A stretch of 64,000 nucleotides of DNA from Alphaproteobacteria bacterium 46_93_T64 (GTDB lineage Bacteria > Pseudomonadota > Alphaproteobacteria > Sneathiellales > Sneathiellaceae). Shown one piece after another: positions 2,640 to 7,738 of this stretch (position 1 is the stretch's first letter; the number at the start of each line of letters is the position of its first letter). A program made the position numbers and the translations under genes. The stretch covers positions 1 to 64,000 of the forward strand of contig MAAN01000041.1 in assembly GCA_002163135.1 (NCBI GenBank). Reading direction: 5' to 3'. The notes beneath the pieces are model-generated. The model was not told the origin of the DNA and searched no databases. It saw nothing but the letters and a program-made list of their open reading frames with translations.

Positions 2640-3554
2640 ATGAATTTTGAACATATTTTTAATGAAATGGAAATCGATGCAGAGCCCTTTGCACTGTGCG
2701 AGTTGCATGGGAAAAGTGACTTAGGGCTGGGCCGCCGACCATTTTCCACGTTGCATTACATTCTCGCGGGAAAGGGTGAAATTGTTTTTCAGGATCGACC
2801 TTCTATTCCGCTTCATCGAGGAACCCTAATTTTGGTGCCGGCTTTACAATCTCACACATTGCGTAGTTTTGGTGAAATTGGCCAACTGCTTCCAAATTGT
2901 TATCCTGAGAAATTGGATCTTATACATCACCATGTTGGCGATCAGGCGCTAGGTCAGCAGGATAAATTGGTGGCTGTTTGCAGTCAGGTTAAAATCGGGC
3001 TTCGCGGCGTAGGTGACTTGATAGATTTGGTGCGCCATCCCATAGTCGAACAGGTCGATCCGAATAGCGCTATGGCAAGCCCTGTCGGGCAGCTGTTACA
3101 AGAAATGTCGAAGCCGGAACTTGGAAGCAGAGCTATGATCCGGGTTCTTCTTATGCAGTGTATGATCTTCCTACTCCGTCAGCGTTTAGATGCTGGTGAT
3201 CCTAGTTTGGCTTGGATGGCGGCATTAGTTGATCAGAAATTATGGACGACATTGCAGCTAATACTGGATGATCCGGGGAAGATTTATACAGTTGAAAGTC
3301 TGGCTGAGCTTGCTGGCATGAGCCGTTCAACTTTCGCGAAACGGTTTTCAAATGCCTATGGGAATGGACCGATGGAGTTGCTGCGGACTATTCGGATGAA
3401 CCGTGCGGCGAGTATGCTGTCAAATACAGACTTGCCCATAAAGAGGATCTCGCTGTTGGCGGGTTTTCAAAGCAGGAGTGCTTTTACGAGAGCATTTGAG
3501 GTCGTCGTTGGGGCAACGCCCGGTCATTTTAGGCGCAACTCCAGAAATCAATAA
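2640..3554 (+). CDS. AraC-family transcriptional regulator
   Basis: A 304-residue protein. The N-terminal half (about 1-190) is a cupin-like sensor domain of the AraC_binding/cupin_6 type, with a typical opening L-H-Y-I-L-A-G-K-G-E. Residues about 205-300 form the double helix-turn-helix, ending in the conserved A-G-F-Q-S-R-S-A-F-T-R-A-F and T-P-G-H-F-R-R segments. It is divergent from the Tat-exported hydrolase (118-base shared promoter region) and is therefore most likely its activator. Its 3' end lies only 8 bases from the convergent histidine kinase gene, with no terminator between them. Confidence 0.9.
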   Translation: MNFEHIFNEMEIDAEPFALCELHGKSDLGLGRRPFSTLHYILAGKGEIVFQDRPSIPLHRGTLILVPALQSHTLRSFGEIGQLLPNCYPEKLDLIHHHVGDQALGQQDKLVAVCSQVKIGLRGVGDLIDLVRHPIVEQVDPNSAMASPVGQLLQEMSKPELGSRAMIRVLLMQCMIFLLRQRLDAGDPSLAWMAALVDQKLWTTLQLILDDPGKIYTVESLAELAGMSRSTFAKRFSNAYGNGPMELLRTIRMNRAASMLSNTDLPIKRISLLAGFQSRSAFTRAFEVVVGATPGHFRRNSRNQ

Positions 3555-3562
3555 AACCGAGT

Positions 3563-5560
3563 TCAATGTTTATTGTCGAGTATCTTGCGAACTGAAATAG
3601 CCAAATCGTGAAATTCGTATGGTTTATCCAAAATGTTTTTTGTGAGTTCGCTGAAAAATATGTTGTCCCCTTTCAATTTTTCTTCTCTAATTTTCGAGAA
3701 GCCGCTGGTGAGTAATATTTTCAAATTAGGATGCATATCTCGTGCAGCTTCAGAAAGCTGATATCCGTCCATACCCTGCGGCATTACAATATCGCTGAAA
3801 AGCAAATCTATATCCGGGTTCTTTTCCAAGACTTCCAGTGCGTTCATGCCATCTTGTGCTAAAATCGTATCATATCCAAGTTTTGTTAGATGAAATTCTG
3901 CTATTTCACGCAATCCCTCTTCATCATCAACAATCAGAACCTTTTCGCTGCCCGTCGGCAATTCACTTTCGATATCGGAGCCATCGTCAATTTCATCCTC
4001 TTCAGTTACGCTACGCGGAAGATACAGCTGGAAGGTTGTTCCATTGCCCGGTTCAGAGTGAATTTTTAAAACCCCAGAAGTTCTTTGCATAAAGCCATAT
4101 ACCATGCTTAAGCCAAGTCCAGTTCCCTTTCCGGGTTCTTTCGTCGTGAAGAAGGGCTGCAAGACCTTGGTCTGGGTTAGTTCGTCCATTCCAATTCCAT
4201 TGTCGCTAACTGATATAAGAACAAAGTCGCCAGGTTGGCCATCGGTTTCCGCCGATAAAAATTCCGCTCCGAGTTTTGTATTTTCAGTTTTGATCTTCAA
4301 CACGCCTCCTTCAGGCATAGCGTCTCGTGCATTGAGAGCTAGATTTAGGAGAGCATTTTCCAGATCGCCGGCGTCAAGTTCGACTGCCCACAGATTTTCT
4401 TTCAGATCCGTTTTGATATCGATCGAAGCGGTGAGCGATTTGGCTATAAGGTCTTTCAAATTGAGTACAAGTTCATTCGCGTCAGTCAATTGTACTTCAT
4501 GCGCATTTTGACGCGAAAAACCGAGCAATTTTCTGGTAACATCGGCACCTCGAATAACTCCGTGCTGTATCTTTTCGAGCCGCTTTTGAATTTCCGGATT
4601 TTCTGAAGACATTTCATCAATCAGTTCTAGGTTTCCCTGAATAAGGCCCAGAATATTATTAAAATCATGGGCGATACCGCCCGTTAATTGACCAACAGCC
4701 TCCATTCTCTGAGCCCGCCGCATCTGCTCTTCCAGCTGGTTCTGTTCTGTGAGGTCGCGACCAACGCCTCTATAACCGATAAAGTCGTTATTTTCATCAT
4801 ATCTAGGTTTGCCGCTAATACTTATAAAGCGATTGTCACCATCTGGCCTGTTCCAATTATATTTAAAGTCTGAAAACGGAAGCCGATTTTTGAGGGTCGA
4901 TTCATGATCTTTCCATTCCGCCGAGTGCCTTAACTTGTTTTCATCATTTACTTCAGCCCTGCTCTTACCGATAAGTTGCTTTTTCTTTAGTCCTAAAATT
5001 TTCTCCATATTACCGGCAATGTATGTGAACCGGAGATCCGAACCCATTTCCCAAAACCAATCAGCACCATTTTCCGCAAAGTCACGAAATCTTTGTTCAC
5101 TTTCAATAACAGCCTCTTCTGCAGTTTGAAGCTTTGCATCTGCCAATTCCAGCTTTGCTGCTGCGAACTGACGAGGGCTTGGGAGTGCTATTATTCTTGG
5201 CATTAAGGGCCAAAGCATTACGCCAATAGATACGGAGACTATGGCTGTGATGACCTTGAATACTGTTTGAATGCCGAAGTCCGGTGTCCACAATGTCCAG
5301 GCGCCTAGAAAATGAACCGTGCCACAGGCGGCAAAAACAAGTGTTCCAAAAGGGATGAAAAACCATTTAAAGGGAATGTCTTCTCTTTGCGTTACAAAGT
5401 AAATCAGGCCAATCGCAACGGAATAGTATGCGAGCCCTGTCAGAACATCGGATATGGCCTGAGTATATAAAATTTCAGGGTACCAGAGGAAGCACGTGCC
5501 GTGAGGCATGAATTCTTCTCTTCCAAAAAAATCAAACACGGTGTTGAGCATTCTCGTCAC
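3563..5560 (-). CDS. Hybrid histidine kinase with ethylene-receptor-like membrane domain
   Basis: A 665-residue sensor kinase. Residues about 30-125 form three membrane helices that match the ethylene-binding domain of plant ETR1: D38, Y45, C79 and H83 align by spacing with ETR1 D25, Y32, C65 and H69 (the last two are the Cu(I) ligands). Then come a coiled linker, a PAS/PAC domain (about 156-272), a phospho-acceptor helix with H298 in G-G-I-A-H-D-F-N-N-I-L, a HATPase domain (D-N-G-I-G-M and a G-T-G-L-G-L box) and a C-terminal receiver domain (about 540-660; D590 in F-S-D-I-V-M-P, K646). Ethylene binding is known for related bacterial proteins such as Synechocystis SynEtr1. Start may be GTG 5560 or ATG 5551. 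No output partner gene lies beside it. Confidence 0.9.
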   Translation of the reverse strand: MTRMLNTVFDFFGREEFMPHGTCFLWYPEILYTQAISDVLTGLAYYSVAIGLIYFVTQREDIPFKWFFIPFGTLVFAACGTVHFLGAWTLWTPDFGIQTVFKVITAIVSVSIGVMLWPLMPRIIALPSPRQFAAAKLELADAKLQTAEEAVIESEQRFRDFAENGADWFWEMGSDLRFTYIAGNMEKILGLKKKQLIGKSRAEVNDENKLRHSAEWKDHESTLKNRLPFSDFKYNWNRPDGDNRFISISGKPRYDENNDFIGYRGVGRDLTEQNQLEEQMRRAQRMEAVGQLTGGIAHDFNNILGLIQGNLELIDEMSSENPEIQKRLEKIQHGVIRGADVTRKLLGFSRQNAHEVQLTDANELVLNLKDLIAKSLTASIDIKTDLKENLWAVELDAGDLENALLNLALNARDAMPEGGVLKIKTENTKLGAEFLSAETDGQPGDFVLISVSDNGIGMDELTQTKVLQPFFTTKEPGKGTGLGLSMVYGFMQRTSGVLKIHSEPGNGTTFQLYLPRSVTEEDEIDDGSDIESELPTGSEKVLIVDDEEGLREIAEFHLTKLGYDTILAQDGMNALEVLEKNPDIDLLFSDIVMPQGMDGYQLSEAARDMHPNLKILLTSGFSKIREEKLKGDNIFFSELTKNILDKPYEFHDLAISVRKILDNKH

Positions 5561-6145: not shown

Positions 6146-7738
6146 ATGAGTTTCTCTGAAATGCTGAATTCGCAGACAGATCAAGATCTAAAAGCCCAGA
6201 GTTTGATTGACATAAGAGAGAAGGCGAGCTGGTTTTACGTTGCCAGTGCTTGGCTCTATTCAATAGCAATTATCATCCTCGCGTCGGTCTTTGATAACTC
6301 ACCATATGTCGTCGGGACATTAAGTGTTGTCTTTTCGGGAATTATCACTTTGTTGGTAAAGTCGAACCCAAGTGCAGGAATGACGCGATACACAGTCGCA
6401 GCAAGTTTAGCTGCTATCTGGATGGTTCTAGTTTATTCGTTATCAGGAAGTCCCGATGGGTTCATTCTTGATGGGCATATGGTTTTCTTCGTACTCGTCG
6501 CTCAATTAACAGCTTATTTTTGCTGGCGGTCTATGGTGATTTTGCTTTCTGCTGCGGCCGTTCATCATCTGCTTACATCATTGCTTCTTCCATTAATGAT
6601 TTGGCCGTCTGACAATTTCATATACACGCATTTCTTCCTTCATGCCGGTTATGTGGTTTTAGTGGGAGTGCCCAGCATTTGGATAACCGCCACAATATTC
6701 AGCATATTTAATCAATCGACACAGGCTTTGGCGGATGCGAGTGTCGCGGCAGAAGAAACGTCACGGATACAATCAGAAATTCAAGAAGCAGAGAAGCGCC
6801 GTGTAGAGCAGGAAAGGGAAACTCAACGAATTTCTCAGGAAGAGCAAAGCCGAATTAAGGAAGATGAGAGAGAAAAAGCAGAAATTGCCAGAAAACAGGG
6901 ATTGTCAGAGTTGGCAAATCAGTTTGAAAGCAAGGTTAAAGCTGTTGTGGATCAAGTGGAGCAGGCAACTGAGCAAATGTCTGGAAATGCAAAAGGGGTG
7001 TCAGAAGTTGCTGCTAATAATACTGCTCAAGTCGAAAGTGCCTCTCAAACAACAAAGAATGCTGCAGACAACGTCAATTCTGTTGCCTCAAACGCAGAAG
7101 AGCTAACTCGAGCGAGTAATGAAATTGGTGAAAGAGTGCATCAAGCCGCACAAGTTGCACAATCGGCGACGGAAAAAGCGAGAGCGACAAATGATCGAAT
7201 TTCTAATCTTGCTGAGGTCGCGCAAAAGATTGGTGATGTGGTGGACCTAATTAATGACATAGCGGGGCAAACTAATTTGCTGGCGCTAAATGCAACCATT
7301 GAAGCTGCGAGAGCAGGGGATGCGGGTAAGGGATTTGCCGTCGTAGCGTCAGAGGTTAAATCTCTGGCTACTCAAACAGGCCGTGCTACAGAAGAAATTG
7401 GTAATCAGATATCTTCAGTCCAAAGAGAGACAGAAAGTGCCGTCTCAGCCATCCAGGAAATCTCAAAAGTCATCGAAGAGATTAGCGAGATATCAGCTTC
7501 CATCAGCGCGGCTGTGGAAGAGCAATCTGCGTCAACTGCAGAAATTAATCGCGGTATTCAGCTTGCAGCTTCCGAGGCCAGTCAGGCAAATACAGATATA
7601 GTTGCCCTAAGAGATGGGGCGTCAGAAACGGTTTCTTCATCTGAATTAATGGTTGTGTCTGCTGAGGGAGTTGCCTCCAATACCAAGGCGTTGAAAGATG
7701 AGATTGAGGATTTCTTGTCTCAGGTAAGAGCGGGATAG
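6146..7738 (+). CDS. Methyl-accepting chemotaxis protein with multi-pass sensor region
   Basis: A 530-residue chemoreceptor. Residues about 25-195 hold roughly six membrane helices instead of the usual two helices with a periplasmic domain. A long charged coiled coil (about 200-250) leads directly to the signalling domain, without a recognisable HAMP domain. The hairpin tip that contacts CheA and CheW is present ([20 protein letters not shown]). Such receptors usually sense membrane-proximal or intracellular signals. GGGAG precedes the start. It lies 51 bases after a small membrane protein and no other che genes are adjacent. The ligand is unknown. Confidence 0.92.

Follow-up and report, generated by a model that had tools for sequence, protein, structure and literature searches.

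Ethylene binding by the plant receptor ETR1 requires seven residues (PMC11819568, PMC6682694). PMC11819568 names D25 among them, and PMC6586836 names I35, P36 and I62 as essential, besides C65 and H69, and places these three next to the modelled ethylene sites. Bacterial ethylene receptors have been called by conservation of the seven binding residues (PMC11819568, PMC6682694). One bacterial ETR1_N histidine kinase, SynEtr1 of Synechocystis, is shown aligned in both papers with the seven residues marked; unlike the protein described here, it carries a cyanobacteriochrome (PMC6682694, PMC11819568). For another, AzoEtr1 of Azospirillum brasilense, ethylene binding has been shown and all seven residues are kept (PMC11819568).

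The gene studied here lies in a stretch of 64,000 nucleotides (the window) of contig MAAN01000041.1 from Alphaproteobacteria bacterium 46_93_T64. Its product resembles AzoEtr1, which is likewise alphaproteobacterial and combines an ETR1_N sensor with a PAS domain and a histidine kinase. However, AzoEtr1 has all seven residues and lacks the insertion in helix 2 that is found in the window protein, and it has 525 aa and a separate small response regulator, whereas the window protein has a fused receiver (PMC11819568). Over the sensor, L033, a sequence from A. brasilense, shares 47% identity with the window protein. With plant ETR1, the protein shares the three-helix, presumably Cu(I)-binding sensor, the D/Y/C/H/K positions and the histidine kinase with receiver, but ETR1 has I35, P36 and I62 and a helix 2 without the extra residue. 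The descriptions in PMC6586836 give ETR1 a GAF domain where the window protein has PAS.

The kinase gene and its copper-site residues

The gene occupies positions 3563..5560 of the minus strand and encodes, from a GTG codon, a hybrid histidine kinase of 665 aa with the layout ETR1_N-PAS-HisKA-HATPase-REC. The reading frame is intact, with zero internal stops. Translation probably begins at the ATG at base 5551, three codons inside the GTG, which would give a product of 662 aa; this ATG is favoured because the ortholog L035 starts at the corresponding ATG, preceded by AAGGAG. Residue numbers are nevertheless counted from the GTG start (665-aa version) throughout.

A Pfam scan placed the ETR1_N sensor domain at residues 30-126 (5183..5473, minus strand) with an E-value of 3.4e-29 and 101.4 bits, the curated cut-off being 27 bits (PF25487). 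The same scan gave a PAS domain at residues 174-269 (4754..5041, minus strand), a kinase module at residues 290-516 (4013..4693, minus strand) made up of HisKA (290-352) and HATPase_c (396-516), with the H-box (H298), N-box and G-box present, and a Response_reg receiver at residues 541-624 (3689..3940, minus strand) with D545/D546 and the presumed phospho-acceptor D590. The kinase motifs are GGIAHDFNN at 294, LNLALNARDAM at 405, VSDNGIGM at 451 and GKGTGLGLSMVYG at 477, and those of the receiver are LIVDDEEG at 542, LFSDIVMP at 587 and DKPY at 645; K646 lies outside the Pfam-matched stretch 541-624. The protein, with HisKA, HATPase_c, a receiver and the catalytic motifs, is a hybrid histidine kinase. 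The Pfam results bear out the preliminary description, which had proposed an ethylene-receptor-type sensor joined to PAS, kinase and receiver modules, and its assignment of the host to the alphaproteobacteria agrees with the same-genus contig of L035, which is also alphaproteobacterial.

The window gene is the single ETR1_N match found in the source genome by a search with the family model. The same model gave matches above the cut-off in 0 of 14 control genomes and, because it was silent there, the likeness to ETR1_N is not due to chance. One match of 21.8 bits, below the cut-off of 27, was not counted as a receptor; it sits in a protein that we take, from its translation, to be CtaA-like. 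Identity as a CckA or PRK13557 kinase was rejected on the NCBIfam scores, which were 379.1 against a cut-off of 631 for PRK13557, and 319 and 268.5 against 1000 for two CckA models. The top structure matches of the kinase core were 5idj ('Histidine kinase') and 5idm (CckA).

In the alignment to the ETR1 sequence, D38 (5447..5449, minus strand; residue coordinates were calculated from base 5560), Y45, C79, H83 (5312..5314, minus strand) and K102 pair with D25, Y32, C65, H69 and K91. The copper ligands Cys65 and His69, together with Asp25 and Tyr32, the last of which we presume to belong to the seven-residue set, therefore have identical counterparts in C79, H83, D38 and Y45. C79 and H83, the latter as the second presumed ligand, would be expected to bind Cu(I). 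The alignment thus agrees with the earlier observation that these four residues, including the ligands, are kept. The spacing had been called nearly the same; it is indeed close, but D38 and C79 are 41 residues apart and D25 and C65 are 40 apart, because there is one extra residue inside helix 2. The invariant columns of an Azospirillum row (L098) agree with the AzoEtr1 numbering D35, C75, H79 and K98 given in PMC11819568.

AlphaFold2 predicted for the window sensor the three long N-terminal helices that are a trait of PF25487 (residues 28-58, 65-91 and 95-124; mean pLDDT 84.7, pTM 0.70), and similar ones for the Azospirillum sensor (25-55, 62-87 and 91-121; mean pLDDT 85.4, pTM 0.69). Predicted helix 2 is 27 residues long in the window protein vs 26 in the Azospirillum sensor. 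A helix model had been proposed earlier as a check on the copper site; this one puts D38 in helix 1 and C79 and H83 in helix 2, and speaks to helix placement only. Sequence comparison gave no solved structure for the sensor (best 3ddl_A, at E 0.23), and Foldseek returned zero matches to the model at E<=0.001.

Two further observations concern metal-site residues in the family. Cys65 and/or His69 is lost in L027, L028, L029, L030, L032, L156, L157, L184 and L185 (9/168 distinct rows); such ETR1_N members provide a natural collection of relatives in which the copper site is incomplete. Just ahead of helix 1, residues 19-23 of the window protein read PHGTC. The pattern PHGxC is absent from ETR1 and is present in 20 of the 25 ligand-keeping rows of L002-L032, which came from family-model searches, and in 96 of 103 rows over all genome searches; it is perhaps a second metal site or a dimer-disulfide site. 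A single cysteine ahead of helix 1 is described for cyanobacterial relatives in PMC6682694.

The altered pocket and its distribution

At the positions of ETR1 I35-P36, the window protein has V48-A49 (5414..5419, minus strand), and its helix 2 contains V75-F76-A77-A78-C79 (5324..5338, minus strand), with one residue added ahead of the Cys ligand. Counted inclusively, the stretch that runs from the counterpart of ETR1 residue 57 up to the Cys has ten residues in the window protein vs nine in ETR1. The counterpart of I62 is V75 by profile pairing or F76 when counted back from the Cys. Hence, all three of I35, P36 and I62 are altered, to V48, A49, and V75 or F76 plus the inserted residue; in addition, T68 is replaced by V82 and A102 by G113. 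The view that the I62 counterpart is simply Phe, as in I62F, which we take to be the change in the Arabidopsis allele etr1-4, was dropped, since the insertion leaves the pairing ambiguous; the term I62F was absent from the results of our literature search. All eight rows of alignment A4 have Phe three residues before the Cys. The extra residue would either rotate the pre-Cys part of helix 2 against the Cys/His face by ~100 degrees or bulge out. The Pro-to-Ala change at P36 is presumably the same as that in the ETR1 alanine scan cited in PMC11819568.

A profile from alignment A2 was run over 220 loci and yielded 207 domain rows, 185 of them distinct when ETR1 is excluded; the loci are not a random sample, as 80 stem from a scan centred on the window and many more from A4 searches. 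Both Cys and His are kept in 175 of the 185 distinct domains. Among these 175, P36 is present and the insertion absent in 156, and all seven ETR1 residues are kept in 141. The insertion occurs in 11, every one of which lacks P36 (nine have Thr and two Ala), while eight others lack P36 without an insertion (seven Ser, one Ala). Gly at position 102 is found in 11/11 insertion-type domains vs 2/164 of the other ligand-keeping ones. All 11 insertion-type sequences, which come from two classes, retain the equivalents of D25, Y32, C65, H69 and K91.

The 11 sequences are the window protein, its ortholog L035 (= L003), five from Colwellia (L053, L061, L065, L066 and L073), L095 from an uncultured Cellvibrionales MAG, and L119-L121 from the family of C. 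marinimaniae. L035, from an uncultured Alphaproteobacteria MAG, is the only same-genus ortholog found, and shares the V48/A49-type changes, the helix 2 insertion and the resulting change at I62. The nine gammaproteobacterial proteins are like the window protein in the insertion, the loss of P36 and Gly at 102, but differ from it in having Thr at P36 and in keeping I35; by profile pairing, I62 is kept in eight of the nine. Because the gammaproteobacterial members keep I35 and mostly I62, only P36 loss, the insertion and Gly at 102 are, on these alignments, marks of the whole group. L095 has the domain order of the window protein, to which it is 36% identical end to end, and L053, the one Colwellia protein scanned, consists of sensor and kinase only (399 aa). 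The link between insertion and P36 loss does not represent 11 independent events, since the 11 sequences are related. A literature search, with poor coverage of subscription journals, returned no description of an insertion-type subgroup, and none for an ethylene receptor together with Colwellia.

These counts bear on the reading, to which we give serious but lesser weight, that the protein is an ordinary ethylene receptor in which the helix 2 insertion would offset the missing proline of helix 1, with ethylene bound at Cu(I). Each insertion in the sample accompanies a P36 loss, as such compensation predicts; moreover, the presumed copper-site residues are kept, the gammaproteobacterial members keep I35, the sensor is 47% identical to that of Azospirillum, and it is strongly conserved in L035. 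Set against this are the three altered residues out of the seven needed in ETR1, one of them Pro to Ala, and the retention of the full set by 141/175 ligand-keeping relatives. Thus, the step from four matching residues to ethylene, taken in the preliminary description, is not supported as stated for this protein, with its altered I35, P36 and I62 and its insertion, when AzoEtr1 keeps all seven. The alternative given there, another small copper ligand, may still apply.

In the class of the window, the Pfam ETR1_N model matched in 28/385 genomes (30 of 35 matches fetched), and the variant was found in 2/25 genomes of the order, both of the window's genus. The A4 profile gave 226-251 bits for variant proteins and at most 145 for all other listed matches. 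Variant-level scores were obtained in 4/295 genomes of the C. marinimaniae family, where 68/295 had any match, in 1/369 genomes of its class and 1/144 of the family of L095 (in both cases the starting genome), and in 1/398 genomes of the phylum (the window's own); insertion status was read in 30 of the 74 listed matches of the C. marinimaniae family and in 20 of the 24 of the L095 family. The search of the C. marinimaniae family also gave many lower-scoring matches in ORFs of ~320-360 aa or ~188 aa, which are apparently separate groups of short ETR1_N proteins. Several variant carriers are deep-sea or pressure-loving organisms, some of them judging by name, namely Colwellia marinimaniae, C. 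piezophila and the source of an ALOHA_DT MAG (L053, L065, L066).

Trees were built from 130 columns, none of which was a trait column. A quick tree covering 111 rows put the 11 variants on one side of a branch with an SH-aLRT value of 84 (the tool warned of few columns). They also grouped, with moderate support (76/80), in a careful tree of 64 rows that excluded long branches and for which most canonical rows were randomly drawn. One origin of the variant, followed by transfer between classes, would be the simplest reading, with moderate support; the bootstrap range is 1-2 changes. Two origins, if true, would make the coupling of insertion and P36 loss more telling.

Constraint on the sensor and gene surroundings

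Between the window protein and L035, the sensor is identical at 118/134 positions (88%), vs 82/148 for PAS plus linker, 146/235 for the kinase and 69/129 for the receiver (53-62%). Nonsynonymous differences per site, in a comparison in which synonymous sites are saturated, are 0.08 in the sensor, 0.28 in PAS plus linker, 0.24 in the kinase and 0.32 in the receiver. The contrast is smaller between L053 and L065 (0.065 in the sensor and 0.098 in the kinase). Relative to L095, the sensor (61/131, 47%) is better conserved than PAS plus linker (40/133) and kinase (92/234), and is on a par with the receiver (57/122, 47%). Overall, the altered sensor is clearly constrained, and this argues against decay. 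That it is a degenerate, ligand-free membrane anchor, with the signal entering through the PAS domain, is accordingly improbable in our view. Changed pocket residues beside an intact PAS domain and kinase would fit such an anchor, as would the loss of a ligand residue in 10/185 distinct family domains (by subtraction) and the comparison with L095, in which the sensor fares no better than the receiver. However, the sensor is the best-conserved part in the comparison with L035 (0.08 vs 0.24-0.32), and Cys, His, Asp, Tyr and Lys are all present in 11/11 variants from two classes.

The kinase gene is flanked by genes for an AraC-type regulator (2640-3554) and a chemoreceptor (6146-7738). The gene list of the window also holds a small ORF without a Pfam match and, after the chemoreceptor, an enoyl-CoA hydratase, an IclR regulator and a short-chain dehydrogenase. 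The chemoreceptor next door had been offered as a clue to function, but it carries no weight as a partner of the kinase: it has 19 matching regions in the genome at E<=1e-30, its own included; elsewhere in the genus search (24 genomes), the best matches over nearly its full length reach 34-35% identity (up to 53% for the shared signalling half alone); and no chemoreceptor was found among the five ORFs scanned of the seven others near L035, where there are other kinases and a YaeQ gene. By eye, the N-terminal half of the chemoreceptor appears to have several membrane helices with many His residues, and it lacks a Pfam sensor domain. No response regulator gene adjoins the kinase gene in the window. 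The genome has one HPTransfase-family match, presumably a gene of the ChpT kind, whose product is a possible partner for the receiver.

No copper-handling family was found among the neighbours scanned around the window gene, L035 and the gammaproteobacterial loci, and a copper-resistance context was therefore discarded. This counts against the idea that the gas pocket was given up and that Cu(I)/Ag(I) itself is sensed, which retained ligand residues next to changed pocket positions would suit. The femtomolar Cu(I) affinity of ETR1 (1.3e-15 M; PMC6586836) also fits a cofactor better than a sensed ion, and we regard a metal sensor of this sort as unlikely.

Other surroundings are noted for completeness. 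Scans found a TonB receptor, SapC and a tryptophan-halogenase near the Colwellia variant gene L053, a TonB receptor near L065 and a halogenase near L066, and the surroundings of L073 resemble this set by look only. Glycosidases lie near some of these genes as well (GH3 and GH1 in L053, GH16 in L065 and GH3 in L066), so that the Colwellia genes are perhaps linked to glucan use; as a trait of the group this link was rejected, being unseen among the scanned neighbours of L061, L095 and the alphaproteobacteria. Finally, on plasmid p2 of Novosphingobium sp. ES2-1 (L034, 1-4465), an ETR1_N-like ATP-binding protein and a response regulator are encoded near a gene annotated as type II Cas9.

A probably remodelled sensor and its possible ligands

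Taken together, we think it somewhat probable that this membrane hybrid kinase of the ETR1_N family depends on Cu(I) for sensing and that its pocket has been remodelled. Its three N-terminal helices would bind a single Cu(I) by way of C79 and H83, and D38 would position H83 and contact K102, as suggested by the ETR1 modelling reported in PMC11819568. A small neutral ligand would arrive through the membrane and bind at the copper, and helix 3 would relay the resulting change to the PAS domain and the kinase, altering autophosphorylation of H298. Phosphate would pass from H298 to D590 in the fused receiver and then, probably, to a phosphotransferase. The pocket near the copper would have been rebuilt by removal of the proline from helix 1, the residue added to helix 2 before the Cys, and Gly at the position of ETR1 A102. 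Such changes would be expected to alter the ligand preference relative to that of ethylene receptors. Two points temper the remodelled pocket: P36 may not be a strict requirement in bacteria, because eight other ligand-keeping proteins lack it and have no insertion, and the effect of the insertion could be to repair the pocket rather than to alter it.

Our guesses at the natural ligand rank ethylene first, as a candidate that nonetheless falls well short of even chances; another small alkene or gas follows as a doubtful candidate, then Cu(I)/Ag(I) itself as an unlikely one, and the absence of any ligand as the least likely. Ethylene is possible, since the insertion may compensate for the missing proline; the protein does not conform to the seven-residue rule, however, and ethylene sensing is therefore no longer the default. 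The presence of Cys, His, Asp and Tyr alone is thus insufficient for calling ethylene receptors.

A bolder and tentative proposal is that the alpha- and gammaproteobacterial variants form a separate ETR1_N branch, which would have kept the Cu(I) site and rebuilt the pocket for a non-ethylene ligand, such as a small alkene or gas. If true, this branch would represent a kind of ETR1_N receptor whose ligand differs. The variants are a natural, conserved subgroup in which the metal-ligand residues are kept and other required positions depart in a coupled manner, and they may help to tell the residues that serve copper from those that serve ethylene, and to find out if there are further ligands in the family.
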